Shown: positions 15,993 to 43,751 of the stretch, piece by piece | Numbering within the stretch: position 1 is the stretch's first letter | Layout: each line of letters opens with the position of its first letter | Source of the DNA: Parapristionchus giblindavisi | Lineage: Eukaryota > Nematoda > Chromadorea > Rhabditida > Diplogasteridae | Direction of reading: 5' to 3' | NCBI GenBank assembly: GCA_943737045.1 | Contig: CALSFV010000240.1 | Span: forward strand, 721,001-785,000 | Length of the DNA: 64,000 nt | Translations under genes and position numbers: made by a program | Notes under the pieces: generated by a model | Told to the model about the DNA's origin: nothing | The model's input: only the letters and a program-made list of their open reading frames with translations | Databases searched by the model: none

Positions 15993-16088
<96 letters not shown>

Positions 16089-24302: not shown

Positions 24303-24374
24303 GCCTCGTACGGGGCTCGAACCCGGGACATTCAGATTAAAAGTCTGACGCTCTACCAACTGAGCTAACGAGGC
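24303..24374 (-). tRNA. tRNA-Lys(UUU), unit 1
   Basis: Consensus body; left edge of array, so last in transcription direction. Left flank is unique sequence. Confidence 0.92.
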
Positions 24375-24454
24375 TCTGTTAAAGCATATTGTAATGCATG
24401 TTATGTTGTTTCCTTGTTCGGCTTTATTACAAAATTGTAATAAAGAAAATATTA

Positions 24455-24526
24455 GCCTCGTACGGGGCTCGAACCCGGGACATTCAGATTAAAAGTCTGA
24501 CGCTCTACCAACTGAGCTAACGAGGC
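24455..24526 (-). tRNA. tRNA-Lys(UUU), unit 2
   Basis: Consensus body. Confidence 0.92.
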
Positions 24527-24606
24527 TCTGTTAAAGCATATTGTAATGCATGTTATGTTGTTTCCTTGTTCGGCTTTATTACAAAATTGTAATAAAGAAA
24601 ATATTA

Positions 24607-24678
24607 GCCTCGTACGGGGCTCGAACCCGGGACATTCAGATTAAAAGTCTGACGCTCTACCAACTGAGCTAACGAGGC
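24607..24678 (-). tRNA. tRNA-Lys(UUU), unit 3
   Basis: Consensus body. Confidence 0.92.
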
Positions 24679-24758
24679 TCTGTTAAAGCATATTGTAATG
24701 CATGTTATGTTGTTTCCTTGTTCGGCTTTATTACAAAATTGTAATAAAGAAAATATTA

Positions 24759-24830
24759 GCCTCGAACGGGGCTCGAACCCGGGACATTCAGATTAAAAGT
24801 CTGACGCTCTACCAACTGAGCTAACGAGGC
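24759..24830 (-). tRNA. tRNA-Lys(UUU), unit 4
   Basis: A66U; breaks acceptor pair 7:66. Confidence 0.85.
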
Positions 24831-24910
24831 TCTGTTAAAGCATATTGTAATGCATGTTATGTTGTTTCCTTGTTCGGCTTTATTACAAAATTGTAATAAA
24901 GAAAATATTA

Positions 24911-24982
24911 GCCTCGTACGGGGCTCGAACCCGGGACATTCAGATTAAAAGTCTGACGCTCTACCAACTGAGCTAACGAGGC
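24911..24982 (-). tRNA. tRNA-Lys(UUU), unit 5
   Basis: Consensus body. Confidence 0.92.
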
Positions 24983-25062
24983 TCTGTTAAAGCATATTGT
25001 AATGCATGTTATGTTGTTTCCTCGTTCGGCTTTATTACAAAATTGTAATAAAGAAAATATTA

Positions 25063-25134
25063 GCCTCGTACGGGGCTCGAACCCGGGACATTCAGATTAA
25101 AAGTCTAACGCTCTACCAACTGAGCTAACGAGGC
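25063..25134 (-). tRNA. tRNA-Lys(UUU), unit 6
   Basis: C28U; anticodon-stem pair becomes U-G. Confidence 0.88.
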
Positions 25135-25214
25135 TCTGTTAAAGCATATTGTAATGCATGTTATGTTGTTTCCTTGTTCGGCTTTATTACAAAATTGTAA
25201 TAAAGAAAATATTA

Positions 25215-25286
25215 GCCTCGTACGGGGCTCGAACCCGGGACATTCAGATTAAAAGTCTGACGCTCTACCAACTGAGCTAACGAGGC
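25215..25286 (-). tRNA. tRNA-Lys(UUU), unit 7
   Basis: Consensus body. Confidence 0.92.
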
Positions 25287-25366
25287 TCTGTTAAAGCATA
25301 TTGTAATGCATGTTATGTTGTTTCCTTGTTCGGCTTTATTACAAAATTGTAATAAAGAAAATATTA

Positions 25367-25438
25367 CCCTGGTACGGGGCTCGAACCCGGGACATTCAGA
25401 TTAAAAGTCTGACGCTCTACCAACTGAGCTAACGAGGC
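25367..25438 (-). tRNA. tRNA-Lys(UUU), unit 8, degenerate acceptor
   Basis: C72G and G68C break acceptor pairs 1:72 and 5:68; likely poor folding. Confidence 0.6.
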
Positions 25439-25518
25439 TCTGTTAAAGCATATTGTAATGCATGTTATGTTGTTTCCTTGTTCGGCTTTATTACAAAATT
25501 GTAATAAAGAAAATATTA

Positions 25519-25590
25519 GCCTCGTACGGGGCTCGAACCCGGGACATTCAGATTAAAAGTCTGACGCTCTACCAACTGAGCTAACGAGGC
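25519..25590 (-). tRNA. tRNA-Lys(UUU), unit 9
   Basis: Consensus body. Confidence 0.92.
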
Positions 25591-25670
25591 TCTGTTAAAG
25601 CATATTGTAATGCATGTTATGTTGTTTCCTTGTTCGGCTTTATTACAAAATTGTAATAAAGAAAATATTA

Positions 25671-25742
25671 GCCTCGTACGGGGCTCGAACCCGGGACATT
25701 CAGATTAAAAGTCTGACGCTCTACCAACTGAGCTAACGAGGC
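25671..25742 (-). tRNA. tRNA-Lys(UUU), unit 10
   Basis: Consensus body. Confidence 0.92.
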
Positions 25743-25822
25743 TCTGTTAAAGCATATTGTAATGCATGTTATGTTGTTTCCTTGTTCGGCTTTATTACAA
25801 AATTGTAATAAAGAAAATATTA

Positions 25823-25894
25823 GCCTCGTACGGGGCTCGAACCCGGGACATTCAGATTAAAAGTCTAACGCTCTACCAACTGAGCTAACGAGGC
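25823..25894 (-). tRNA. tRNA-Lys(UUU), unit 11
   Basis: C28U. Confidence 0.88.
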
Positions 25895-25974
25895 TCTGTT
25901 AAAGCATATTGTAATGCATGTTATGTTGTTTCCTTGTTCGGCTTTATTACAAAATTGTAATAAAGAAAATATTA

Positions 25975-26046
25975 GCCTCGTACGGGGCTCGAACCCGGGA
26001 CATTCAGATTAAAAGTCTGACGCTCTACCAACTGAGCTAACGAGGC
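25975..26046 (-). tRNA. tRNA-Lys(UUU), unit 12
   Basis: Consensus body. Confidence 0.92.
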
Positions 26047-26126
26047 TCTGTTAAAGCATATTGTAATGCATGTTATGTTGTTTCCTTGTTCGGCTTTATT
26101 ACAAAATTGTAATAAAGAAAATATTA

Positions 26127-26198
26127 GCCTCGTACGGGGCTCGAACCCGGGACATTCAGATTAAAAGTCTGACGCTCTACCAACTGAGCTAACGAGGC
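26127..26198 (-). tRNA. tRNA-Lys(UUU), unit 13
   Basis: Consensus body. Confidence 0.92.
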
Positions 26199-26278
26199 TC
26201 TGTTAAAGCATATTGTAATGCATGTTATGTTGTTTCCTTGTTCGGCTTTATTACAAAATTGTAATAAAGAAAATATTA

Positions 26279-26350
26279 GCCTCGTACGGGGCTCGAACCC
26301 GGGACATTCAGATTAAAAGTCTGACGCTCTACCAACTGAGCTAACGAGGC
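26279..26350 (-). tRNA. tRNA-Lys(UUU), unit 14
   Basis: Consensus body. Confidence 0.92.
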
Positions 26351-26430
26351 TCTGTTAAAGCATATTGTAATGCATGTTATGTTGTTTCCTTGTTCGGCTT
26401 TATTACAAAATTGTAATAAAGAAAATATTA

Positions 26431-26502
26431 GCCTCGTACGGGGCTCGAACCCGGGACATTCAGATTAAAAGTCTGACGCTCTACCAACTGAGCTAACGAG
26501 GC
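26431..26502 (-). tRNA. tRNA-Lys(UUU), unit 15
   Basis: Consensus body. Confidence 0.92.
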
Positions 26503-26582
26503 TCTGTTAAAGCATATTGTAATGCATGTTATGTTGTTTCCTTGTTCGGCTTTATTACAAAATTGTAATAAAGAAAATATTA

Positions 26583-26654
26583 GCCTCGTACGGGGCTCGA
26601 ACCCGGGACATTCAGATTAAAAGTCTAACGCTCTACCAACTGAGCTAACGAGGC
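26583..26654 (-). tRNA. tRNA-Lys(UUU), unit 16
   Basis: C28U. Confidence 0.88.
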
Positions 26655-26734
26655 TCTGTTAAAGCATATTGTAATGCATGTTATGTTGTTTCCTTGTTCG
26701 GCTTTATTACAAAATTGTAATAAAGAAAATATTA

Positions 26735-26806
26735 GCCTCGTACGGGGCTCGAACCCGGGACATTCAGATTAAAAGTCTAACGCTCTACCAACTGAGCTAA
26801 CGAGGC
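26735..26806 (-). tRNA. tRNA-Lys(UUU), unit 17
   Basis: C28U. Confidence 0.88.
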
Positions 26807-26886
26807 TCTGTTAAAGCATATTGTAATGCATGTTATGTTGTTTCCTTGTTCGGCTTTATTACAAAATTGTAATAAAGAAAATATTA

Positions 26887-26958
26887 GCCTCGTACGGGGC
26901 TCGAACCCGGGACATTCAGATTAAAAGTCTGACGCTCTACCAACTGAGCTAACGAGGC
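26887..26958 (-). tRNA. tRNA-Lys(UUU), unit 18
   Basis: Consensus body. Confidence 0.92.
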
Positions 26959-27038
26959 TCTGTTAAAGCATATTGTAATGCATGTTATGTTGTTTCCTTG
27001 TTCAGCTTTATTACAAAATTGTAATAAAGAAAATATTA

Positions 27039-27110
27039 GCCTCGTACGGGGCTCGAACCCGGGACATTCAGATTAAAAGTCTGACGCTCTACCAACTGAG
27101 CTAACGAGGC
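27039..27110 (-). tRNA. tRNA-Lys(UUU), unit 19
   Basis: Consensus body. Confidence 0.92.
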
Positions 27111-27190
27111 TCTGTTAAAGCATATTGTAATGCATGTTATGTTGTTTCCTTGTTCGGCTTTATTACAAAATTGTAATAAAGAAAATATTA

Positions 27191-27262
27191 GCCTCGTACG
27201 GGGCTCGAACCCGGGACATTCAGATTAAAAGTCTAACGCTCTACCAACTGAGCTAACGAGGC
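27191..27262 (-). tRNA. tRNA-Lys(UUU), unit 20
   Basis: C28U. Confidence 0.88.
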
Positions 27263-27342
27263 TCTGTTAAAGCATATTGTAATGCATGTTATGTTGTTTC
27301 CTTGTTCGGCTTTATTACAAAATTGTAATAAAGAAAATATTA

Positions 27343-27414
27343 GCCTCGTACGGGGCTCGAACCCGGGACATTCAGATTAAAAGTCTGACGCTCTACCAAC
27401 TGAGCTAACGAGGC
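27343..27414 (-). tRNA. tRNA-Lys(UUU), unit 21
   Basis: Consensus body; the spacer on its right is only 60 nt (20-nt deletion). Confidence 0.92.
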
Positions 27415-27474
27415 TCTGTTAAATGTTGTTTCCTTGTTCGGCTTTATTACAAAATTGTAATAAAGAAAATATTA

Positions 27475-27546
27475 GCCTCGTACGGGGCTCGAACCCGGGA
27501 CATTCAGATTAAAAGTCTGACGCTCTACCAACTGAGCTAACGAGGC
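27475..27546 (-). tRNA. tRNA-Lys(UUU), unit 22
   Basis: Consensus body. Confidence 0.92.
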
Positions 27547-27626
27547 TCTGTTAAAGCATATTGTAATGCATGTTATGTTATTTCCTTGCTCGGCTTTATT
27601 ACAAAATTGTAATAAAGAAAATATTA

Positions 27627-27698
27627 GCCTCGTACGGAGCTCGAACCCGGGACATTCAGATTAAAAGTCTGACGCTCTACCAACTGAGCTAACGAGGC
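27627..27698 (-). tRNA. tRNA-Lys(UUU), unit 23
   Basis: C61U; T-stem pair 53:61 becomes G-U. Confidence 0.88.
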
Positions 27699-27778
27699 TC
27701 TGTTAAAGCATATTGTAATGCATGTTATGTTGTTTCCTTGTTCGGCTTTATTACAAAATTGTAATAAAGAAAATATTA

Positions 27779-27850
27779 GCCTCGTACGGGGCTCGAACCC
27801 GGGACATTCAGATTAAAAGTCTGACGCTCTACCAACTGAGCTAACGAGGC
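27779..27850 (-). tRNA. tRNA-Lys(UUU), unit 24
   Basis: Consensus body. Confidence 0.92.
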
Positions 27851-27930
27851 TATGTTAAAGCATATTGTAATGTATGTTCTGTTGTTTCTTTGTTTGGCTT
27901 TATTACAAAATTGTAATAAAGAAAATATTA

Positions 27931-28002
27931 GCCTCGTACGGGGCTCGAACCCGGGACATTCAGATTAAAAGTCTGACGCTCTACCAACTGAGCTAACGAG
28001 GC
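27931..28002 (-). tRNA. tRNA-Lys(UUU), unit 25
   Basis: Consensus body. Confidence 0.92.
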
Positions 28003-28082
28003 TCTGATAAAGCATGTTGTAATGCATGCTATGTTGTTTCCTTGTTCGGATTTATGATAAAACTGTAATAAAGAAAATATTA

Positions 28083-28154
28083 GCCTCGTACGGGGCTCGA
28101 ACCCGGGACATTCAGATTAAAAGTCTGACGCTCTACCAACTGAGCTAACGAGGC
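28083..28154 (-). tRNA. tRNA-Lys(UUU), unit 26
   Basis: Consensus body. Confidence 0.92.
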
Positions 28155-28234
28155 TCTGTTAAAGCATATTGTAATGCATGTTATGTTGTTTCCTTGTTCG
28201 GATTTATGATAAAACTGTAATAAAGAAAATATTA

Positions 28235-28306
28235 GCCTCGTACGGGGCTCTAACCCGGGACATTCAGATTAAAAGTCTGACGCTCTACCAACTGAGCTAA
28301 CGAGGC
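28235..28306 (-). tRNA. tRNA-Lys(UUU)-like, unit 27, C56A
   Basis: C56A in T loop and B box. Confidence 0.65.
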
Positions 28307-28386
28307 TCTGTTAAAGCATATTGTAATGCATTTTATGTTGTTTCCTTGTTCGGATTTATGATAAAACTGTAATAAAGAAAATATTA

Positions 28387-28458
28387 GCCTCGTACGGGGC
28401 TCTAACCCGGGACATTCAGATTAAAAGTCTGACGCTCTACCAACTGAGCTAACGAGGC
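28387..28458 (-). tRNA. tRNA-Lys(UUU)-like, unit 28, C56A
   Basis: C56A. Confidence 0.65.
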
Positions 28459-28538
28459 TCTGTTAAAGCGTATTGTAATGCATGTTCTGTTGTTTCCTTC
28501 TTCGGATTTATGACAAAATTGTGATAAAGAAAATATTA

Positions 28539-28610
28539 GCCTCGTACGGGGCTCGAACCCGGGACATTCAGATTAAAAGTCTGACGCTCTACCAACTGAG
28601 CTAACGAGGC
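28539..28610 (-). tRNA. tRNA-Lys(UUU), unit 29
   Basis: Consensus body. Confidence 0.92.
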
Positions 28611-28690
28611 CCTGTTAAAGCATATTGTAAAGTATGTTCTGTTGTTTCCTTCTTCGGATTTATGTCAAAATTGTGATAAAGAAAATATTA

Positions 28691-28762
28691 GCCTCGTACG
28701 GGGCTCGAACCCGGGACATTCAGATTAAAAGTCTGACGCTCTACCAACTGAGCTAACGAGGC
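28691..28762 (-). tRNA. tRNA-Lys(UUU), unit 30
   Basis: Consensus body. Confidence 0.92.
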
Positions 28763-28842
28763 TCTGTTAAAGCATATTGTAATGCATGTTATGTTGTTTC
28801 CTTGTTCGGCTTTATTACAAAATTGTAATAAAGAAAATATTA

Positions 28843-28914
28843 GCCTCGTACGGGGCTCTAACCCGGGACATTCAGATTAAAAGTCTGACGCTCTACCAAC
28901 TGAGCTAACGAGGC
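28843..28914 (-). tRNA. tRNA-Lys(UUU)-like, unit 31, C56A
   Basis: C56A. Confidence 0.65.
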
Positions 28915-28994
28915 TCTGTTAAAGCATATTGTAATGCATGTTATGTTATTTCCTTGCTCGGCTTTATTACAAAATTGTAATAAAGAAAATATTA

Positions 28995-29066
28995 GCCTCG
29001 TACGGAGCTCGAACCCGGGACATTCAGATTAAAAGTCTGACGCTCTACCAACTGAGCTAACGAGGC
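28995..29066 (-). tRNA. tRNA-Lys(UUU), unit 32
   Basis: C61U; counterpart of unit 23. Confidence 0.88.
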
Positions 29067-29146
29067 TCTGTTAAAGCATATTGTAATGCATGTTATGTTG
29101 TTTCCTTGTTCGGCTTTATTACAAAATTGTAATAAAGAAAATATTA

Positions 29147-29218
29147 GCCTCGTACGGGGCTCGAACCCGGGACATTCAGATTAAAAGTCTGACGCTCTAC
29201 CAACTGAGCTAACGAGGC
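29147..29218 (-). tRNA. tRNA-Lys(UUU), unit 33
   Basis: Consensus body. Confidence 0.92.
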
Positions 29219-29298
29219 TATGTTAAAGCATATTGTAATGTATGTTCTGTTGTTTCTTTGTTTGGCTTTATTACAAAATTGTAATAAAGAAAATATTA

Positions 29299-29370
29299 GC
29301 CTCGTACGGGGCTCGAACCCGGGACATTCAGATTAAAAGTCTGACGCTCTACCAACTGAGCTAACGAGGC
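29299..29370 (-). tRNA. tRNA-Lys(UUU), unit 34
   Basis: Consensus body. Confidence 0.92.
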
Positions 29371-29450
29371 TCTGATAAAGCATGTTGTAATGCATGCTAT
29401 GTTGTTTCCTTGTTCGGATTTATGATAAAACTGTAATAAAGAAAATATTA

Positions 29451-29522
29451 GCCTCGTACGGGGCTCGAACCCGGGACATTCAGATTAAAAGTCTGACGCT
29501 CTACCAACTGAGCTAACGAGGC
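29451..29522 (-). tRNA. tRNA-Lys(UUU), unit 35
   Basis: Consensus body. Confidence 0.92.
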
Positions 29523-29602
29523 TCTGTTAAAGCATATTGTAATGCATGTTATGTTGTTTCCTTGTTCGGATTTATGATAAAACTGTAATAAAGAAAATAT
29601 TA

Positions 29603-29674
29603 GCCTCGTACGGGGCTCTAACCCGGGACATTCAGATTAAAAGTCTGACGCTCTACCAACTGAGCTAACGAGGC
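29603..29674 (-). tRNA. tRNA-Lys(UUU)-like, unit 36, C56A
   Basis: C56A; counterpart of unit 27. Confidence 0.65.
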
Positions 29675-29754
29675 TCTGTTAAAGCATATTGTAATGCATT
29701 TTATGTTGTTTCCTTGTTCGGATTTATGATAAAACTGTAATAAAGAAAATATTA

Positions 29755-29826
29755 GCCTCGTACGGGGCTCTAACCCGGGACATTCAGATTAAAAGTCTGA
29801 CGCTCTACCAACTGAGCTAACGAGGC
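29755..29826 (-). tRNA. tRNA-Lys(UUU)-like, unit 37, C56A
   Basis: C56A; counterpart of unit 28. Confidence 0.65.
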
Positions 29827-29906
29827 TCTGTTAAAGCGTATTGTAATGCATGTTCTGTTGTTTCCTTCTTCGGATTTATGACAAAATTGTGATAAAGAAA
29901 ATATTA

Positions 29907-29978
29907 GCCTCGTACGGGGCTCGAACCCGGGACATTCAGATTAAAAGTCTGACGCTCTACCAACTGAGCTAACGAGGC
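29907..29978 (-). tRNA. tRNA-Lys(UUU), unit 38
   Basis: Consensus body. Confidence 0.92.
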
Positions 29979-30058
29979 CCTGTTAAAGCATATTGTAAAG
30001 TATGTTCTGTTGTTTCCTTCTTCGGATTTATGTCAAAATTGTGATAAAGAAAATATTA

Positions 30059-30130
30059 GCCTCGTACGGGGCTCGAACCCGGGACATTCAGATTAAAAGT
30101 CTGACGCTCTACCAACTGAGCTAACGAGGC
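30059..30130 (-). tRNA. tRNA-Lys(UUU), unit 39
   Basis: Consensus body. Confidence 0.92.
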
Positions 30131-30210
30131 TCTGTTAAAGCATATTGTAATGCATGTTATGTTGTTTCCTTGTTCGGCTTTATTACAAAATTGTAATAAA
30201 GAAAATATTA

Positions 30211-30282
30211 GCCTCGTACGGGGCTCGAACCCGGGACATTCAGATTAAAAGTCTGACGCTCTACCAACTGAGCTAACGAGGC
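30211..30282 (-). tRNA. tRNA-Lys(UUU), unit 40
   Basis: Consensus body. Confidence 0.92.
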
Positions 30283-30362
30283 TCTGTTAAAGCATATTGT
30301 AATGCATGTTATGTTGTTTCCTTGTTCGGCTTTATTACAAAATTGTAATAAAGAAAATATTA

Positions 30363-30434
30363 GCCTCGTACGGGGCTCGAACCCGGGACATTCAGATTAA
30401 AAGTCTGACGCTCTACCAACTGAGCTAACGAGGC
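30363..30434 (-). tRNA. tRNA-Lys(UUU), unit 41
   Basis: Consensus body. Confidence 0.92.
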
Positions 30435-30514
30435 TCTGTTAAAGCATATTGTAATGCATGTTATGTTGTTTCCTTGTTCGGCTTTATTACAAAATTGTAA
30501 TAAAGAAAATATTA

Positions 30515-30586
30515 GCCTCGTACGGGGCTCGAACCCGGGACATTCAGATTAAAAGTCTAACGCTCTACCAACTGAGCTAACGAGGC
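30515..30586 (-). tRNA. tRNA-Lys(UUU), unit 42
   Basis: C28U. Confidence 0.88.
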
Positions 30587-30666
30587 TCTGTTAAAGCATA
30601 TTGTAATGCATGTTATGTTGTTTCCTTGTTCGGCTTTATTACAAAATTGTAATAAAGAAAATATTA

Positions 30667-30738
30667 GCCTCGTACGGGGCTCGAACCCGGGACATTCAGA
30701 TTAAAAGTCTGACGCTCTACCAACTGAGCTAACGAGGC
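30667..30738 (-). tRNA. tRNA-Lys(UUU), unit 43
   Basis: Consensus body. Confidence 0.92.
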
Positions 30739-30818
30739 TCTGTTAAAGCATATTGTAATGCATGTTATGTTGTTTCCTTGTTCGGCTTTATTACAAAATT
30801 GTAATAAAGAAAATATTA

Positions 30819-30890
30819 GCCTCGTACGGGGCTCGAACCCGGGACATTCAGATTAAAAGTCTGACGCTCTACCAACTGAGCTAACGAGGC
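30819..30890 (-). tRNA. tRNA-Lys(UUU), unit 44
   Basis: Consensus body. Confidence 0.92.
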
Positions 30891-30970
30891 TCTGTTAAAG
30901 CATATTGTAATGCATGTTATGTTGTTTCCTTGTTCGGCTTTATTACAAAATTGTAATAAAGAAAATATTA

Positions 30971-31042
30971 GCCTCGTACGGGGCTCGAACCCGGGACATT
31001 CAGATTAAAAGTCTAACGCTCTACCAACTGAGCTAACGAGGC
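30971..31042 (-). tRNA. tRNA-Lys(UUU), unit 45
   Basis: C28U. Confidence 0.88.
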
Positions 31043-31122
31043 TCTGTTAAAGCATATTGTAATGCATGTTATGTTGTTTCCTTGTTCGGCTTTATTACAA
31101 AATTGTAATAAAGAAAATATTA

Positions 31123-31194
31123 GCCTCGTACGGGGCTCGAACCCGGGACATTCAGATTAAAAGTCTGACGCTCTACCAACTGAGCTAACGAGGC
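31123..31194 (-). tRNA. tRNA-Lys(UUU), unit 46
   Basis: Consensus body. Confidence 0.92.
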
Positions 31195-31274
31195 TCTGTT
31201 AAAGCATATTGTAATGCATGCTATGTTGTTTCCTTGCTCGGCTTTATTACAAAATTGTAATAAAGAAAATATTA

Positions 31275-31346
31275 GCCTCGTACGGAGCTCGAACCCGGGA
31301 CATTCAGATTAAAAGTCTGACGCTCTACCAACTGAGCTAACGAGGC
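31275..31346 (-). tRNA. tRNA-Lys(UUU), unit 47
   Basis: C61U. Confidence 0.88.
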
Positions 31347-31426
31347 TCTGTTAAAGCATATTGTAATGCATGTTATGTTGTTTCCTTGTTCGGCTTTATT
31401 ACAAAATTGTGATAAAGAAAATATTA

Positions 31427-31498
31427 GCCTCGTACGGGGCTCTAACCCGGGACATTCAGATTAAAAGTCTGACGCTCTACCAACTGAGCTAACGAGGC
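31427..31498 (-). tRNA. tRNA-Lys(UUU)-like, unit 48, C56A
   Basis: C56A. Confidence 0.65.
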
Positions 31499-31578
31499 TC
31501 TGTTAAAGCATATTGTAATGCATTTTATGTTGTTTCCTTGTTCGGATTTATGATAAAACTGTAATAAAGAAAATATTA

Positions 31579-36442: not shown

Positions 36443-36514
36443 GCCTCGTACGGGGCTCTAACCCGGGACATTCAGATTAAAAGTCTGACGCTCTACCAAC
36501 TGAGCTAACGAGGC
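36443..36514 (-). tRNA. tRNA-Lys(UUU)-like, unit 81, C56A
   Basis: C56A. Confidence 0.65.
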
Positions 36515-36594
36515 TCTGTTAAAGCGTATTGTAATGCATGTTCTGTTGTTTCCTTCTTCGGATTTATGACAAAATTGTGATAAAGAAAATATTA

Positions 36595-36666
36595 GCCTCG
36601 TACGGGGCTCGAACCCGGGACATTCAGATTAAAAGTCTGACGCTCTACCAACTGAGCTAACGAGGC
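36595..36666 (-). tRNA. tRNA-Lys(UUU), unit 82
   Basis: Consensus body. Confidence 0.92.
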
Positions 36667-36746
36667 TCTGTTAAAGCATATTGTAATGCATGTTATGTTG
36701 TTTCCTTGTTCGGCTTTATTACAAAATTGCAATAAAGAAAATATTA

Positions 36747-36818
36747 GCCTCGTACGGGGCTCTAACCCGGGACATTCAGATTAAAAGTCTGACGCTCTAC
36801 CAACTGAGCTAACGAGGC
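36747..36818 (-). tRNA. tRNA-Lys(UUU)-like, unit 83, C56A
   Basis: C56A. Confidence 0.65.
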
Positions 36819-36898
36819 TCTGTTAAAGCGTATTGTAATGCATGTTCTGTTGTTTCCTTGTTCGGATTTATGATAAAACTGTAATAAAGAAAATATTA

Positions 36899-36970
36899 GC
36901 CTCGTACGGGGCTCTAACCCGGGACATTCAGATTAAAAGTCTGACGCTCTACCAACTGAGCTAACGAGGC
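36899..36970 (-). tRNA. tRNA-Lys(UUU)-like, unit 84, C56A
   Basis: C56A. Confidence 0.65.
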
Positions 36971-37050
36971 TCTGTTAAAGCATATTGTAAAGTATGTTCT
37001 GTTGTTTCCTTCTTCGGATTTATTACAAAATTGAAATAAAGAAAATATTA

Positions 37051-37122
37051 GCCTCGTACGGGGCTCGAACCCGGGACATTCAGATTAAAAGTCTGACGCT
37101 CTACCAACTGAGCTAACGAGGC
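37051..37122 (-). tRNA. tRNA-Lys(UUU), unit 85
   Basis: Consensus body. Confidence 0.92.
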
Positions 37123-37201
37123 TCTGTTAAAGCATATTGTAATGTATGTTCTGTTGTTTCTTCTTCGGATTTATTACAAAATTGAAATAAAGAAAATATT
37201 A

Positions 37202-37273
37202 GCCTCGTACGGGGCTCGAACCCGGGACATTCAGATTAAAAGTCTGACGCTCTACCAACTGAGCTAACGAGGC
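37202..37273 (-). tRNA. tRNA-Lys(UUU), unit 86
   Basis: Consensus body; first 151-bp unit. Confidence 0.92.
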
Positions 37274-37352
37274 TCTGTTAAAGCATATTGTAATGTATGT
37301 TCTGTTGTTTCTTCTTCGGATTTATTACAAAATTGAAATAAAGAAAATATTA

Positions 37353-37424
37353 GCCTCGTACGGGGCTCGAACCCGGGACATTCAGATTAAAAGTCTGACG
37401 CTCTACCAACTGAGCTAACGAGGC
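37353..37424 (-). tRNA. tRNA-Lys(UUU), unit 87
   Basis: Consensus body. Confidence 0.92.
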
Positions 37425-37504
37425 TCTGTTAAAGCATATTGTAAAGTATGTTCTGTTGTTTCCTTCTTCGGATTTATTACAAAATTGAAATAAAGAAAAT
37501 ATTA

Positions 37505-37576
37505 GCCTCGTACGGGGCTCGAACCCGGGACATTCAGATTAAAAGTCTGACGCTCTACCAACTGAGCTAACGAGGC
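37505..37576 (-). tRNA. tRNA-Lys(UUU), unit 88
   Basis: Consensus body. Confidence 0.92.
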
Positions 37577-37656
37577 TCTGTTAAAGCGTATTGTAATGCA
37601 TGTTCTGTTGTTTCCTTCTTCGGATTTATGACAAAATTGTGATAAAGAAAATATTA

Positions 37657-37728
37657 GCCTCGTACGGGGCTCGAACCCGGGACATTCAGATTAAAAGTCT
37701 GACGCTCTACCAACTGAGCTAACGAGGC
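37657..37728 (-). tRNA. tRNA-Lys(UUU), unit 89
   Basis: Consensus body. Confidence 0.92.
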
Positions 37729-37808
37729 TCTGTTAAAGCATATTGTAATGCATGTTATGTTGTTTCCTTGTTCGGCTTTATTACAAAATTGTAATAAAGA
37801 AAATATTA

Positions 37809-37880
37809 GCCTCGTACGGGGCTCTAACCCGGGACATTCAGATTAAAAGTCTGACGCTCTACCAACTGAGCTAACGAGGC
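37809..37880 (-). tRNA. tRNA-Lys(UUU)-like, unit 90, C56A
   Basis: C56A; counterpart of unit 83. Confidence 0.65.
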
Positions 37881-37960
37881 TCTGTTAAAGCGTATTGTAA
37901 TGCATGTTCTGTTGTTTCCTTGTTCGGATTTATGATAAAACTGTAATAAAGAAAATATTA

Positions 37961-38032
37961 GCCTCGTACGGGGCTCTAACCCGGGACATTCAGATTAAAA
38001 GTCTGACGCTCTACCAACTGAGCTAACGAGGC
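37961..38032 (-). tRNA. tRNA-Lys(UUU)-like, unit 91, C56A
   Basis: C56A; last of this subtype. Confidence 0.65.
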
Positions 38033-38112
38033 TCTGTTAAAGCATATTGTAAAGTATGTTCTGTTGTTTCCTTCTTCGGATTTATTACAAAATTGAAATA
38101 AAGAAAATATTA

Positions 38113-38184
38113 GCCTCGTACGGGGCTCGAACCCGGGACATTCAGATTAAAAGTCTGACGCTCTACCAACTGAGCTAACGAGGC
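38113..38184 (-). tRNA. tRNA-Lys(UUU), unit 92
   Basis: Consensus body. Confidence 0.92.
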
Positions 38185-38263
38185 TCTGTTAATGCATATT
38201 GTAATGTATGTTCTGTTGTTTCTTCTTCGGATTTATTACAAAATTGAAATAAAGAAAATATTA

Positions 38264-38335
38264 GCCTCGTACGGGGCTCGAACCCGGGACATTCAGATTA
38301 AAAGTCTGACGCTCTACCAACTGAGCTAACGAGGC
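38264..38335 (-). tRNA. tRNA-Lys(UUU), unit 93
   Basis: Consensus body. Confidence 0.92.
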
Positions 38336-38414
38336 TCTGTTAAAGCATATTGTAATGTATGTTCTGTTGTTTCTTCTTCGGATTTATTACAAAATTGAAA
38401 TAAAGAAAATATTA

Positions 38415-38486
38415 GCCTCGTACGGGGCTCGAACCCGGGACATTCAGATTAAAAGTCTGACGCTCTACCAACTGAGCTAACGAGGC
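38415..38486 (-). tRNA. tRNA-Lys(UUU), unit 94
   Basis: Consensus body. Confidence 0.92.
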
Positions 38487-38566
38487 TCTGTTAAAGCATA
38501 TTGTAAAGTATGTTCTGTTGTTTCCTTCTTCGGATTTATTACAAAATTGAAATAAAGAAAATATTA

Positions 38567-38638
38567 GCCTCGTACGGGGCTCGAACCCGGGACATTCAGA
38601 TTAAAAGTCTGACGCTCTACCAACTGAGCTAACGAGGC
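38567..38638 (-). tRNA. tRNA-Lys(UUU), unit 95
   Basis: Consensus body. Confidence 0.92.
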
Positions 38639-38718
38639 TCTGTTAATGCATATTGTAATGTATGTTCTGTTGTTTCCTTCTTCGGATTTATGACAAAATT
38701 GTGATAAAGAAAATATTA

Positions 38719-38790
38719 GCCTCGTACGGGGCTCGAACCCGGGACATTCAGATTAAAAGTCTGACGCTCTACCAACTGAGCTAACGAGGC
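38719..38790 (-). tRNA. tRNA-Lys(UUU), unit 96
   Basis: Consensus body. Confidence 0.92.
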
Positions 38791-38818
38791 TCTGTTAAAG
38801 CATATTGTAAATGTTCTG

Positions 38819-38843
38819 TTGACATTCTCTACCAACTGAGCTT
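38819..38843 (-). pseudogene. tRNA-Lys fragment between units 96 and 97
   Basis: Only GACATT joined to CTCTACCAACTGAGCT remains, between two spacer pieces; the anticodon arm and both acceptor strands are gone. Confidence 0.8.
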
Positions 38844-38922
38844 CTGTTAAAGCATATTGTAAAGTATGTTCTGTTGTTTCCTTCTTCGGATTTATTACAA
38901 AATTGAAATAAAGAAAATATTA

Positions 38923-38994
38923 GCCTCGTACGGGGCTCGAACCCGGGACATTCAGATTAAAAGTCTGACGCTCTACCAACTGAGCTAACGAGGC
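38923..38994 (-). tRNA. tRNA-Lys(UUU), unit 97
   Basis: Consensus body. Confidence 0.92.
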
Positions 38995-39073
38995 TCTGTT
39001 AAAGCATATTGTAATGTATGTTCTGTTGTTTCTTCTTCGGATTTATTACAAAATTGAAATAAAGAAAATATTA

Positions 39074-39145
39074 GCCTCGTACGGGGCTCGAACCCGGGAC
39101 ATTCAGATTAAAAGTCTGACGCTCTACCAACTGAGCTAACGAGGC
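39074..39145 (-). tRNA. tRNA-Lys(UUU), unit 98
   Basis: Consensus body. Confidence 0.92.
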
Positions 39146-39225
39146 TCTGTTAAAGCATATTGTAAAGTATGTTCTGTTGTTTCCTTCTTCGGATTTATTA
39201 CAAAATTGAAATAAAGAAAATATTA

Positions 39226-39297
39226 GCCTCGTACGGGGCTCGAACCCGGGACATTCAGATTAAAAGTCTGACGCTCTACCAACTGAGCTAACGAGGC
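39226..39297 (-). tRNA. tRNA-Lys(UUU), unit 99
   Basis: Consensus body. Confidence 0.92.
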
Positions 39298-39376
39298 TCT
39301 GTTAAAGCATATTGTAATGTATGTTCTGTTGTTTCTTCTTCGGATTTATTACAAAATTGAAATAAAGAAAATATTA

Positions 39377-39390
39377 GCCTCGTACGAGGC
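39377..39390 (-). pseudogene. tRNA-Lys 3' fragment, unit 100 (14 nt)
   Basis: Only GCCTCGTACGAGGC, the perfect 14-bp palindrome of the C62U subtype, is left and is joined directly to spacer sequence. Confidence 0.85.
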
Positions 39391-39448
39391 GTATGTTCTG
39401 TTGTTTCTTCTTCGGATTTATTACAAAATTGAAATAAAGAAAATATTA

Positions 39449-39512
39449 GCCTCGTCGAACCCGGGACATTCAGATTAAAAGTCTGACGCTCTACCAACTG
39501 AGCTAACGAGGC
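39449..39512 (-). pseudogene. tRNA-Lys with 8-nt deletion, unit 101
   Basis: 64 nt. The 8 nt spanning the 3' strand of the T stem are missing, so T arm and acceptor cannot form. Confidence 0.85.
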
Positions 39513-39592
39513 TCTGTTAAAGCATATTGTAAAGTATGTTCTGTTGTTTCCTTCTTCGGATTTATTACAAAATTGAAATAAAGAAAATATTA

Positions 39593-39664
39593 GCCTCGTA
39601 CGGGGCTCGAACCCGGGACATTCAGATTAAAAGTCTGACGCTCTACCAACTGAGCTAACGAGGC
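39593..39664 (-). tRNA. tRNA-Lys(UUU), unit 102
   Basis: Consensus body. Confidence 0.92.
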
Positions 39665-39744
39665 TCTGTTAAAGCATATTGTAAAGTATGTTCTGTTGTT
39701 TCCTTCTTCGGATTTATTACAAAATTGAAATAAAGAAAATATTA

Positions 39745-39816
39745 GCCTCGTACGGGGCTCGAACCCGGGACATTCAGATTAAAAGTCTGACGCTCTACCA
39801 ACTGAGCTAACGAGGC
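39745..39816 (-). tRNA. tRNA-Lys(UUU), unit 103
   Basis: Consensus body. Confidence 0.92.
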
Positions 39817-39896
39817 TCTGTTAAAGCATATTGTAAAGTATGTTCTGTTGTTTCCTTCTTCGGATTTATTACAAAATTGAAATAAAGAAAATATTA

Positions 39897-39968
39897 GCCT
39901 CGTACGGGGCTCGAACCCGGGACATTCAGATTAAAAGTCTGACGCTCTACCAACTGAGCTAACGAGGC
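39897..39968 (-). tRNA. tRNA-Lys(UUU), unit 104
   Basis: Consensus body. Confidence 0.92.
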
Positions 39969-40047
39969 TCTGTTAAAGCATATTGTAATGTATGTTCTGT
40001 TGTTTCTTCTTCGGATTTATTACAAAATTGAAATAAAGAAAATATTA

Positions 40048-40119
40048 GCCTCGTACGAGGCTCGAACCCGGGACATTCAGATTAAAAGTCTGACGCTCTA
40101 CCAACTGAGCTAACGAGGC
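40048..40119 (-). tRNA. tRNA-Lys(UUU), unit 105
   Basis: C62U; T-stem pair 52:62 becomes G-U. Confidence 0.87.
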
Positions 40120-40198
40120 TCTGTTAAAGCATATTGTAATGTATGTTCTGTTGTTTCTTCTTCGGATTTATTACAAAATTGAAATAAAGAAAATATTA

Positions 40199-40270
40199 GC
40201 CTCGTACGAGGCTCGAACCCGGGACATTCAGATTAAAAGTCTGACGCTCTACCAACTGAGCTAACGAGGC
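40199..40270 (-). tRNA. tRNA-Lys(UUU), unit 106
   Basis: C62U. Confidence 0.87.
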
Positions 40271-40349
40271 TCTGTTAAAGCATATTGTAATGTATGTTCT
40301 GTTGTTTCTTCTTCGGATTTATTACAAAATTGAAATAAAGAAAATATTA

Positions 40350-40421
40350 GCCTCGTACGAGGCTCGAACCCGGGACATTCAGATTAAAAGTCTGACGCTC
40401 TACCAACTGAGCTAACGAGGC
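40350..40421 (-). tRNA. tRNA-Lys(UUU), unit 107
   Basis: C62U. Confidence 0.87.
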
Positions 40422-40500
40422 TCTGTTAAAGCATATTGTAATGTATGTTCTGTTGTTTCTTCTTCGGATTTATTACAAAATTGAAATAAAGAAAATATTA

Positions 40501-40572
40501 GCCTCGTACGGGGCTCGAACCCGGGACATTCAGATTAAAAGTCTGACGCTCTACCAACTGAGCTAACGAGGC
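40501..40572 (-). tRNA. tRNA-Lys(UUU), unit 108
   Basis: Consensus body. Confidence 0.92.
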
Positions 40573-40652
40573 TCTGTTAAAGCATATTGTAAAGTATGTT
40601 CTGTTGTTTCCTTCTTCGGATTTATTACAAAATTGAAATAAAGAAAATATTA

Positions 40653-40724
40653 GCCTCGTACGGGGCTCGAACCCGGGACATTCAGATTAAAAGTCTGACG
40701 CTCTACCAACTGAGCTAACGAGGC
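40653..40724 (-). tRNA. tRNA-Lys(UUU), unit 109
   Basis: Consensus body. Confidence 0.92.
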
Positions 40725-40804
40725 TCTGTTAAAGCATATTGTAAAGTATGTTCTGTTGTTTCCTTCTTCGGATTTATTACAAAATTGAAATAAAGAAAAT
40801 ATTA

Positions 40805-40876
40805 GCCTCGTACGGGGCTCGAACCCGGGACATTCAGATTAAAAGTCTGACGCTCTACCAACTGAGCTAACGAGGC
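40805..40876 (-). tRNA. tRNA-Lys(UUU), unit 110
   Basis: Consensus body. Confidence 0.92.
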
Positions 40877-40955
40877 TCTGTTAAAGCATATTGTAATGTA
40901 TGTTCTGTTGTTTCTTCTTCGGATTTATTACAAAATTGAAATAAAGAAAATATTA

Positions 40956-41027
40956 GCCTCGTACGAGGCTCGAACCCGGGACATTCAGATTAAAAGTCTG
41001 ACGCTCTACCAACTGAGCTAACGAGGC
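40956..41027 (-). tRNA. tRNA-Lys(UUU), unit 111
   Basis: C62U. Confidence 0.87.
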
Positions 41028-41106
41028 TCTGTTAAAGCATATTGTAATGTATGTTCTGTTGTTTCTTCTTCGGATTTATTACAAAATTGAAATAAAGAAA
41101 ATATTA

Positions 41107-41178
41107 GCCTCGTACGAGGCTCGAACCCGGGACATTCAGATTAAAAGTCTGACGCTCTACCAACTGAGCTAACGAGGC
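41107..41178 (-). tRNA. tRNA-Lys(UUU), unit 112
   Basis: C62U. Confidence 0.87.
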
Positions 41179-41257
41179 TCTGTTAAAGCATATTGTAATG
41201 TATGTTCTGTTGTTTCTTCTTCGGATTTATTACAAAATTGAAATAAAGAAAATATTA

Positions 41258-41329
41258 GCCTCGTACGAGGCTCGAACCCGGGACATTCAGATTAAAAGTC
41301 TGACGCTCTACCAACTGAGCTAACGAGGC
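41258..41329 (-). tRNA. tRNA-Lys(UUU), unit 113
   Basis: C62U. Confidence 0.87.
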
Positions 41330-41408
41330 TCTGTTAAAGCATATTGTAATGTATGTTCTGTTGTTTCTTCTTCGGATTTATTACAAAATTGAAATAAAGA
41401 AAATATTA

Positions 41409-41480
41409 GCCTCGTACGAGGCTCGAACCCGGGACATTCAGATTAAAAGTCTGACGCTCTACCAACTGAGCTAAGGAGGC
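41409..41480 (-). tRNA. tRNA-Lys(UUU), unit 114
   Basis: C62U plus G6C, which breaks acceptor pair 6:67. Confidence 0.75.
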
Positions 41481-41560
41481 CCTGTTAAAGCATATTGTAA
41501 TGTATGTTCTGTTGTTTCCTTCTTCGGATTTATTACAAAATTGAAATAAAGAAAATATTA

Positions 41561-41632
41561 GCCTCGTACGGGGCTCGAACCCGGGACATTCAGATTAAAA
41601 GTCTGACGCTCTACCAACTGAGCTAACGAGGC
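41561..41632 (-). tRNA. tRNA-Lys(UUU), unit 115
   Basis: Consensus body. Confidence 0.92.
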
Positions 41633-41711
41633 TCTGTTAAAGCATATTGTAATGTATGTTCTGTTGTTTCTTCTTCGGATTTATTACAAAATTGAAATAA
41701 AGAAAATATTA

Positions 41712-41783
41712 GCCTCGTACGAGGCTCGAACCCGGGACATTCAGATTAAAAGTCTGACGCTCTACCAACTGAGCTAACGAGGC
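41712..41783 (-). tRNA. tRNA-Lys(UUU), unit 116
   Basis: C62U. Confidence 0.87.
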
Positions 41784-41863
41784 TCTGTTAAAGCATATTG
41801 TAAAGTATGTTCTGTTGTTTCCTTCTTCGGATTTATTACAAAATTGAAATAAAGAAAATATTA

Positions 41864-41935
41864 GCCTCGTACGGGGCTCGAACCCGGGACATTCAGATTA
41901 AAAGTCTGACGCTCTACCAACTGAGCTAACGAGGC
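41864..41935 (-). tRNA. tRNA-Lys(UUU), unit 117
   Basis: Consensus body. Confidence 0.92.
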
Positions 41936-42015
41936 TCTGTTAAAGCATATTGTAAAGTATGTTCTGTTGTTTCCTTCTTCGGATTTATTACAAAATTGAA
42001 ATAAAGAAAATATTA

Positions 42016-42087
42016 GCCTCGTACGGGGCTCGAACCCGGGACATTCAGATTAAAAGTCTGACGCTCTACCAACTGAGCTAACGAGGC
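42016..42087 (-). tRNA. tRNA-Lys(UUU), unit 118
   Basis: Consensus body. Confidence 0.92.
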
Positions 42088-42167
42088 TCTGTTAAAGCAT
42101 ATTGTAAAGTATGTTCTGTTGTTTCCTTCTTCGGATTTATTACAAAATTGAAATAAAGAAAATATTA

Positions 42168-42239
42168 GCCTCGTACGGGGCTCGAACCCGGGACATTCAG
42201 ATTAAAAGTCTGACGCTCTACCAACTGAGCTAACGAGGC
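42168..42239 (-). tRNA. tRNA-Lys(UUU), unit 119
   Basis: Consensus body. Confidence 0.92.
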
Positions 42240-42318
42240 TCTGTTAAAGCATATTGTAATGTATGTTCTGTTGTTTCTTCTTCGGATTTATTACAAAATT
42301 GAAATAAAGAAAATATTA

Positions 42319-42390
42319 GCCTCGTACGAGGCTCGAACCCGGGACATTCAGATTAAAAGTCTGACGCTCTACCAACTGAGCTAACGAGGC
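42319..42390 (-). tRNA. tRNA-Lys(UUU), unit 120
   Basis: C62U; counterpart of unit 105. Confidence 0.87.
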
Positions 42391-42469
42391 TCTGTTAAAG
42401 CATATTGTAATGTATGTTCTGTTGTTTCTTCTTCGGATTTATTACAAAATTGAAATAAAGAAAATATTA

Positions 42470-42541
42470 GCCTCGTACGAGGCTCGAACCCGGGACATTC
42501 AGATTAAAAGTCTGACGCTCTACCAACTGAGCTAACGAGGC
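42470..42541 (-). tRNA. tRNA-Lys(UUU), unit 121
   Basis: C62U. Confidence 0.87.
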
Positions 42542-42620
42542 TCTGTTAAAGCATATTGTAATGTATGTTCTGTTGTTTCTTCTTCGGATTTATTACAAAA
42601 TTGAAATAAAGAAAATATTA

Positions 42621-42692
42621 GCCTCGTACGAGGCTCGAACCCGGGACATTCAGATTAAAAGTCTGACGCTCTACCAACTGAGCTAACGAGGC
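42621..42692 (-). tRNA. tRNA-Lys(UUU), unit 122
   Basis: C62U. Confidence 0.87.
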
Positions 42693-42771
42693 TCTGTTAA
42701 AGCATATTGTAATGTATGTTCTGTTGTTTCTTCTTCGGATTTATTACAAAATTGAAATAAAGAAAATATTA

Positions 42772-42843
42772 GCCTCGTACGGGGCTCGAACCCGGGACAT
42801 TCAGATTAAAAGTCTGACGCTCTACCAACTGAGCTAACGAGGC
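42772..42843 (-). tRNA. tRNA-Lys(UUU), unit 123
   Basis: Consensus body. Confidence 0.92.
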
Positions 42844-42923
42844 TCTGTTAAAGCATATTGTAAAGTATGTTCTGTTGTTTCCTTCTTCGGATTTATTACA
42901 AAATTGAAATAAAGAAAATATTA

Positions 42924-42995
42924 GCCTCGTACGGGGCTCGAACCCGGGACATTCAGATTAAAAGTCTGACGCTCTACCAACTGAGCTAACGAGGC
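42924..42995 (-). tRNA. tRNA-Lys(UUU), unit 124
   Basis: Consensus body. Confidence 0.92.
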
Positions 42996-43075
42996 TCTGT
43001 TAAAGCATATTGTAAAGTATGTTCTGTTGTTTCCTTCTTCGGATTTATTACAAAATTGAAATAAAGAAAATATTA

Positions 43076-43147
43076 GCCTCGTACGGGGCTCGAACCCGGG
43101 ACATTCAGATTAAAAGTCTGACGCTCTACCAACTGAGCTAACGAGGC
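43076..43147 (-). tRNA. tRNA-Lys(UUU), unit 125
   Basis: Consensus body. Confidence 0.92.
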
Positions 43148-43226
43148 TCTGTTAAAGCATATTGTAATGTATGTTCTGTTGTTTCTTCTTCGGATTTATT
43201 ACAAAATTGAAATAAAGAAAATATTA

Positions 43227-43298
43227 GCCTCGTACGAGGCTCGAACCCGGGACATTCAGATTAAAAGTCTGACGCTCTACCAACTGAGCTAACGAGGC
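43227..43298 (-). tRNA. tRNA-Lys(UUU), unit 126
   Basis: C62U. Confidence 0.87.
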
Positions 43299-43377
43299 TC
43301 TGTTAAAGCATATTGTAATGTATGTTCTGTTGTTTCTTCTTCGGATTTATTACAAAATTGAAATAAAGAAAATATTA

Positions 43378-43449
43378 GCCTCGTACGAGGCTCGAACCCG
43401 GGACATTCAGATTAAAAGTCTGACGCTCTACCAACTGAGCTAACGAGGC
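43378..43449 (-). tRNA. tRNA-Lys(UUU), unit 127
   Basis: C62U. Confidence 0.87.
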
Positions 43450-43528
43450 TCTGTTAAAGCATATTGTAATGTATGTTCTGTTGTTTCTTCTTCGGATTTA
43501 TTACAAAATTGAAATAAAGAAAATATTA

Positions 43529-43600
43529 GCCTCGTACGAGGCTCGAACCCGGGACATTCAGATTAAAAGTCTGACGCTCTACCAACTGAGCTAACGAGGC
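43529..43600 (-). tRNA. tRNA-Lys(UUU), unit 128
   Basis: C62U. Confidence 0.87.
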
Positions 43601-43679
43601 TCTGTTAAAGCATATTGTAATGTATGTTCTGTTGTTTCTTCTTCGGATTTATTACAAAATTGAAATAAAGAAAATATTA

Positions 43680-43751
43680 GCCTCGTACGAGGCTCGAACC
43701 CGGGACATTCAGATTAAAAGCCTGACGCTCTACCAACTGAGCTAAGGAGGC
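43680..43751 (-). tRNA. tRNA-Lys(UUU), unit 129
   Basis: C62U, G6C and A31G; first unit in transcription direction. Its 5' flank keeps about 40 nt of spacer before unique sequence begins near 43793. Confidence 0.75.

Follow-up and report, generated by a model that had tools for sequence, protein, structure and literature searches.

The window, the whole 64,000-nucleotide stretch of DNA analysed here, contains a tandem array of 127 tRNA-Lys(UUU) genes in units of 151 or 152 bp (Table 1). It is probable that this array grew from a functional tRNA gene by unequal exchange, and that it is held under a weak, collective constraint while probably dead copies hitchhike. Seen directly in the sequence are the arrangement of the units, the identity of the copies, the block duplications, the homologous dispersed copies (one with a clear decayed second copy) and the conservation of the dispersed bodies. 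We further infer that the array is transcribed, that unequal exchange was the mechanism of its growth and that copy number is nearly neutral.

Table 1. Features of the tRNA-Lys(UUU) array (positions in the window)
Feature	Positions	Strand	Basis
Complete array of tandem tRNA-Lys(UUU) units with a 151/152-bp period	24294..43789	-	TRF, ARAGORN, Rfam
Extent of the 127 full-length tRNA-Lys(ttt) bodies	24301..43752	-	ARAGORN, Rfam
Promoter-side array edge: ~40 bp of unit-like 5' flank ahead of the first gene, beyond it non-unit sequence	43753..43792	-	Sequence, alignment with dispersed loci
Terminator-side array edge: ATATTTTAA after the last gene, beyond it non-unit sequence	24292..24300	-	Sequence, alignment
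Disordered stretch within the 367-bp spacing, with a partial unit and a truncated tRNA body (39448-39512)	39299..39590	-	Spacing analysis, Rfam
Spacer within the 204-bp spacing: ~52 bp extra, a scrap of a unit	38792..38920	-	Spacing analysis
Spacer within the 132-bp spacing: 20 bp shorter	27416..27472	-	Spacing analysis
Representative spacer, including the 5' flank of the following gene and a perfect inverted repeat of 11 bp (24422-24445)	24376..24452	-	Sequence

ARAGORN, run over the whole window, identifies the 127 tRNA-Lys(ttt) genes, on the minus strand throughout. With Rfam model RF00005, 128 matches above the gathering score are found in the array: 70 at 65.9 bits, 57 at 51.5 to 64.3 bits and, as the 128th, the truncated copy at 47.6 bits. 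TRF reports a period of 152 bp from 24294 to 43751 and one of 151 bp that runs on to 43789. The starts of successive genes lie 152 bp apart in 101 of 126 cases and 151 bp apart in 22; the remaining three spacings are 367, 204 and 132 bp. The sequence-only reading had described 127 full-length bodies of one isoacceptor in a head-to-tail repeat of strict 151/152-bp period, and this description is borne out. The animal host that it presumed is right as well, and the genome's mitochondrial contig indicates a chromadorean nematode. The array is indeed a homogeneous tDNA tandem array of the Phytophthora infestans / Hydractinia type (one isoacceptor, head-to-tail, conserved spacing), with 127 copies and 123 of the 126 spacings at 151 or 152 bp. 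That so many copies should have arisen by chance is not an issue. The gene takes up about half the length of each unit. The copies had also been called near-identical, a term that has to take in 42 distinct sequences among 126 whole units; 70 of the 127 bodies share the same mature 73-mer.

The tRNA model does not reject the consensus body. All 127 bodies match the cloverleaf model at 51.5-65.9 bits, where the Rfam cut-off is 29, and ARAGORN reads the anticodon as ttt. Apart from the 70 identical bodies, 32 have wobble or D-loop changes only, 19 carry the substitution C56A in the B box and 6 have pair- or core-breaking changes. The downstream TTTT noted earlier is invariant, columns 74 to 83 being without variation in the 123 units compared. 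The fold and the A and B boxes, which had been attributed to each unit, are present in most copies; the B box is not intact in the 19 bodies with C56A. These C56A copies are probably dead. With A and B boxes inside and TTTT behind, each unit is a complete gene, so that transcription would be possible from most copies. The consensus body folds by MFE into a cloverleaf with a T stem of 4 bp, and the centroid fold is without the T stem. The T stem of the array isodecoder (CCGGG/CCCGU) has one mismatch, and the isodecoder scores 65.9 bits versus 73.8 bits for canonical Lys-UUU, of which two loci were scanned. A defect due to U73 was considered and rejected, T73 being common to the dispersed Lys-UUU and Lys-CUU genes inspected. 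Six stem transitions in the array all keep a wobble pair (sign test, p 0.031), and five stem transversions (G6C, C63A, A66U, G68C and C72G) break a pair. Since five of the six pair-keeping transitions are C to T, strand-biased damage would give them too.

Judged from sequence comparison, the repeat unit did not originate in the array: the same isodecoder with homologous flanks occurs at ten full-length loci elsewhere in the genome (four at C74, three at C667, two at C243 and one at C49). Among these ten, 4 of 73 body sites are variable versus 40 of 67 flank sites, although indels in the C667 loci make the latter figure somewhat too high. One of the C243 loci has a decayed second tRNA copy upstream of its gene, and four further dispersed loci (L009, L011, L015 and L016) carry a remnant resembling the tail of a preceding unit. 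Three more partial unit matches (C243:628654, C268:572010 and C268:576960), which start at position 31 or 35 with 85-86% identity, were left out of the ten. A tRNA-derived SINE was rejected on the alignment of the ten loci, which share about 40 bp on the 5' side and up to about 60 bp on the 3' side, without a common tail.

Numbered along the direction of transcription, units 58-70 are exact duplicates of units 75-87 (13 units), 2-12 of 17-27 (11 units) and 89-96 of 98-105 (8 units). Together with the 70 identical bodies, these blocks show the near-identity of bodies and spacers, and the grouping of variants, that unequal exchange would produce. C56A copies have been carried along in the block duplications. 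The founder would have been a dispersed gene of a minor tRNA-Lys(UUU) isodecoder, on a segment that reached about 40 bp into the gene's own 5' flank and 37 bp into its 3' flank, terminator included. A head-to-tail duplication of this segment would have been followed by its amplification, several units per block, through either unequal exchange or slippage during replication. Selection would act loosely, on the pool of copies: mutations in the body would arise and seldom reach a common frequency, yet some probably dead copies, those with C56A, would have been carried along. Having spread to 19 of the 127 copies, C56A indicates that selection on each copy is weak at best.

Variability within the array was compared over 123 units, at 73 sites of the mature body and 79 sites of the spacer. 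Non-singleton variable sites amount to 7/73 in the body versus 25/79 in the spacer (p 0.0012), so that common variants are rarer in the body by a factor of about 3.3. Singleton variable sites number 7 in the body versus 2 in the spacer (p 0.088), and the two variant spectra differ (p 0.0037). The scarcity of common variants in the body could be a legacy of the founders, from a time when these were constrained single genes, and not a product of selection within the array.

These figures bear on the proposal that the array is a selfish or structural satellite, in which the tRNA body is a mere passenger or else a dense TFIIIC/Pol III site marking a chromatin boundary or nuclear position. We hold this to be unlikely. 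A passenger body should be as variable as the spacer, which the common variants argue against; rare variants, not being scarcer in the body, behave as for a passenger now free to drift. The acceptor and anticodon stems, needless for a pure TFIIIC function, are mostly kept. Growth by blocks, on the other hand, is satellite-like, and a human tRNA tandem repeat has been proposed as a boundary element (PMC4041453). The surroundings of the array also look gene-poor, since no Pfam match was found among the 150 longest of 237 ORFs of at least 50 aa (low-complexity ORFs, the array and a LINE at 10.4-14.2 kb excluded), in a scan that is insensitive, nematode exons being short. The initial suggestion of selfish satellite DNA with an incidental tRNA holds as regards the satellite-like growth of the unit. 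Within the unit, however, it is the body that is conserved, and the same gene also occurs as constrained dispersed copies.

Equally unlikely, in our estimate, is that selection for a high output of tRNA-Lys(UUU) to decode AAA keeps the array. The genome holds at least 163 Lys-UUU genes (127 in the array, 10 of the same isodecoder and 26 canonical dispersed ones) versus 76 pattern matches for Lys-CUU; genome-wide scoring with the Rfam tRNA model took in 63 of 22684 candidates. The array bodies are mostly intact, and a table in PMC1779591 gives a wide range in AAA share among nematode species. However, actin exons favour AAG (60 AAG versus 3 AAA in 12 exon matches of 47 listed, a count over five gene copies, three of them near-identical, with some intron codons included), so that the little codon evidence seen does not support a role in Lys-AAA dosage, as had been proposed. 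Moreover, the 26 canonical Lys-UUU copies are already present, the array isodecoder has its T-stem mismatch and C56A copies travel along with the blocks.

More doubtful still is a role of the array as a dedicated Pol III domain, in which over 100 TFIIIC sites at a near-nucleosomal 152-bp pitch would shape local chromosome organisation and would also be a source of a distinct Lys-UUU isodecoder (with its 4-bp T stem) or of its fragments, copy number being tuned by selection on the pool and not on single genes. Expansion of the array during assembly, from a true locus with far fewer copies, is the least probable reading: exact duplicates of 8-13 units (1.2-2 kb) are of a kind that assemblers can invent, but the 42 distinct unit sequences stand in order, the array lies within an 870-kb contig of the 251-Mb genome with non-unit sequence to either side, and there is no sign of leftover contigs carrying array units. 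The pattern total of 133 is accounted for by 125 matches in the window and 8 at C74, C667 and C243 (these 8 matched from other searches), and an artefact betrayed by leftover copies was rejected as far as possible on this count.

The array is a compact further case of the large one-isoacceptor or satellite arrays of tRNA genes known elsewhere. In Phytophthora infestans, 271 tRNA-Cys copies in a 513-nt unit are reported, and array growth is ascribed to unequal crossing-over (PMC9584435). As here, its arrays have one tRNA per unit, one isoacceptor, near-identical copies (hundreds there) and grouped variants. That organism differs in being an oomycete with a longer unit and in having most of its tRNA genes in arrays, whereas the canonical Lys-UUU genes are dispersed here. 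Hydractinia, like the present host an animal, has tRNA arrays of tens to hundreds (PMC11067881), and maize, a plant, has a tRNA satellite, tRNASAT_ZM, which likewise forms a single block, of 91.95 kb, on chr4L (PMC10335936). With these three reports at hand, the earlier statement that the array is far beyond ordinary clusters is overstated. Entamoeba also has tandem arrays of tRNA genes, but with up to 5 tRNA genes per unit and microsatellite-like repeats between them, making up >10% of its genome (PMC2652664). The human tRNA VNTR at 1q23.3 is likewise a tandem repeat holding tRNA genes, but its 7.3-kb unit contains several of them plus CTCF sites and is present in a variable number of 9-43 units (PMC4041453). 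Among the open-licence PMC papers listed by literature searches, including 20 of 68 and 12 of 42 hits from searches aimed at nematodes, none was recognised as describing a tRNA array in a nematode.

Provided that the copy number is genuine, the array is an animal example of tRNA genes packed very compactly and in almost pure form. A single genome here displays the birth of one tRNA gene unit, the spread of its probably dead copies and its decay (the degenerate second copy at C243), which makes it possible to ask if individual tRNA genes, or only the pool of them, are visible to selection. tRNA gene counts, used as a proxy of codon demand, may be inflated by one local amplification. The same genome contains smaller tandem arrays, one of 8 Lys-CUU copies with a period of 170 bp and one of 4 Ala-UGC copies with a period of 338-341 bp.

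The window spans bases 721001-785000 of the 870-kb contig C240, part of a genome of 251 Mb in 703 contigs. Run on the whole window, ARAGORN reports 127 tRNA-Lys(ttt) genes, all on the minus strand, and no tRNA besides these. Rfam yields 128 tRNA matches in the array, as it also picks up a truncated copy. The sequence-only reading, which had proposed some 127 tandem Lys(UUU) bodies, is borne out by these counts. Start-to-start spacing is 152 bp in 101 cases and 151 bp in 22, with odd values of 367, 204 and 132 bp. Both ends of the array pass into non-unit sequence; at the promoter-side end the first gene has ahead of it a 5' flank that is unit-like for about 40 bp, and at the terminator-side end a T run is still present behind the last gene.

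The same mature 73-mer is encoded by 70 of the 127 bodies, and another 32 differ from it solely by stem changes that keep a wobble pair or by a change in the D loop. Six bodies have pair-breaking or core changes, the "core" loop positions being those of our own list. The earlier claim that each unit carries A and B boxes and a TTTT holds for the latter, which lies 3' of the body and is invariant in the 123 units compared, but not for the B box, altered in 19 of 127 bodies by C56A, a change that also affects the T loop. The T stem of the array isodecoder is CCGGG/CCCGU, in which C49 and U65 mismatch, whereas that of the canonical gene is AGGGG/CCCCU; the Rfam score of the isodecoder is 65.9 bits versus 73.8 bits for the canonical type (two loci). 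Folded alone, the array body gives an MFE structure with four stems, the T stem having 4 bp, and a centroid without the T stem; the canonical body gives four stems with a shifted T stem. Since the C56A body folds as the array body does, folding does not separate them. T73 is not an array defect, because the dispersed Lys-UUU and Lys-CUU genes printed (those in loci L009-L038 and L081-L085) have it too. As far as sequence goes, the data support the view that the array is a set of potentially transcribed genes.

The 126 units comprise 42 distinct sequences, and runs of 13, 11 and 8 units recur as exact copies. Unit identities and block duplicates are as would be expected of multi-unit unequal exchange or slippage. 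Variability was assessed in 123 units, with the three units of unusual length and the final one excluded. The mature body has a nucleotide diversity of 0.0132, the spacer one of 0.0702; 14 of 73 sites are variable in the body versus 27 of 79 in the spacer (p 0.045). Non-singleton variable sites number 7 in the body versus 25 in the spacer (p 0.0012), singletons 7 versus 2 (p 0.088), and the two frequency spectra differ (p 0.0037). Thus the body mutates, yet few of its variants grow common. This pattern is compatible with weak purifying selection on the pool of copies. It also fits a history in which the founders, still single genes, were under constraint, and relaxed drift set in once they had been amplified. 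Changes in the stems comprise six transitions that retain a wobble pair and five transversions that break one. Five of the six wobble-keeping transitions are C to T, as would also result from strand-biased damage to transcribed DNA.

The canonical Lys-UUU pattern has 26 matches dispersed in the genome. The array-type pattern has 133, 125 of them inside the window, and ten full-length array-type loci (two mutated copies included) lie outside it, on contigs C74 (four), C667 (three), C243 (two) and C49 (one). All ten carry the 5' flank of the unit and some of its 3' flank, and among them 4 of 73 sites vary in the body versus 40 of 67 in the flanks, the flank figure being somewhat inflated by indels. 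Upstream of the gene at one of the C243 loci lies a decayed tRNA of the same type, and at four other loci (L009, L011, L015 and L016) the upstream stretch resembles the tail of a preceding unit. These remnants suggest that the 150-bp format is probably older than this array. The four array-type genes on C74 (L009, L015, L016 and L017) stand directly before a repeated exon-like stretch, reading about DIDIAHNEHFKGYG, and so seem to have been copied along with a host gene family. Partial unit matches at C268:572010-572114, C268:576960-577064 and C243:628654-628760 lack the first 30-34 bases, show 85-86% identity and are possibly decayed copies.

A role in Lys-AAA decoding dosage, one of the functions suggested earlier, is not supported, as actin exons contain 60 AAG versus 3 AAA codons, a count on few sequences from a single gene family (12 exon matches of the 47 listed, from five gene copies, three of them near-identical, with some intron codons included). 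The longest 150 of 237 selected ORFs outside the array and the LINE gave no Pfam domain match, so that the surroundings look gene-poor at the low sensitivity of this search. The reverse transcriptase and endonuclease parts of the retrotransposon are in overlapping frames, and its upstream frame of 264 aa is without a Pfam match. The spacer contains an 11-bp inverted repeat (CTTTATTACAA/TTGTAATAAAG) just past the terminator, perfect in two units at the low-coordinate end and imperfect in one unit at the other end.

Features of the window, in window coordinates
Feature	Position	Strand	Detail
Non-LTR retrotransposon	10504-14100	minus	RT domain and endonuclease match
Reverse transcriptase domain	11124-13067		part of retrotransposon
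Endonuclease match	12983-13414		part of retrotransposon
(TA)44 run	15996-16083
Minisatellite	17963-18180		84-bp period, ~2.5 copies
tRNA-Lys(ttt) genes	24301-43752	minus	ARAGORN
Spacer inverted repeat (example)	24422-24445		perfect, 11 bp
Truncated tRNA copy	39448-39512		Rfam
CTCCCT array	58935-59075

The Lys-CUU pattern has 76 matches in the genome; eight tRNA-Lys(CUU) genes stand head to tail about 170 bp apart at C3:1155001-1157000 (L081), and four identical tRNA-Ala(UGC) genes are spaced 341 or 338 bp apart at C332:96500-99500 (L082). Tandem growth has therefore occurred here for at least two other tRNAs. The Lys-UUU array is the largest tRNA array among those examined in this genome, where the genome-wide Rfam tRNA search scored 63 of 22684 candidates. 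Four further Lys-CUU pattern matches with 170-bp spacing lie at C3:1242984-1243523. The B-box pattern GGTTCGANTCC has 6550 matches genome-wide versus 69 for a reversed control, which points to thousands of tRNA genes or tRNA-derived repeats.

Tandem tRNA genes are described elsewhere. Bermudez-Santana et al. give a definition of tDNA clusters and report large ones to have originated many times among eukaryotes (PMC2888827). In Phytophthora infestans a single array of 513-nt units holds 271 tRNA-Cys genes, gene numbers being checked by read depth (PMC9584435); Hydractinia arrays run from tens to hundreds of genes, with longer spacers (PMC11067881), and maize has a 92-kb tRNA satellite (PMC10335936). 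Plant clusters reach 26 when the genes are identical and 110 when they are not (PMC12652284), and tandem arrays expand and contract in Drosophila simulans and its kin (PMC7919458). No published nematode tRNA array was found among the matches listed by literature searches, including nematode-specific ones. The Parapristionchus array is thus a compact addition to an already known class.

COX1, on contig C644 (14.2 kb), has TGA as a sense codon. The 8 kb examined contain seven long frames, all on one strand, which by eye we take to be, in order, ND1, ATP6, ND2, CYTB, COX3, ND4 and COX1. That mitochondrial gene order, together with code 5, is the chromadorean nematode pattern.
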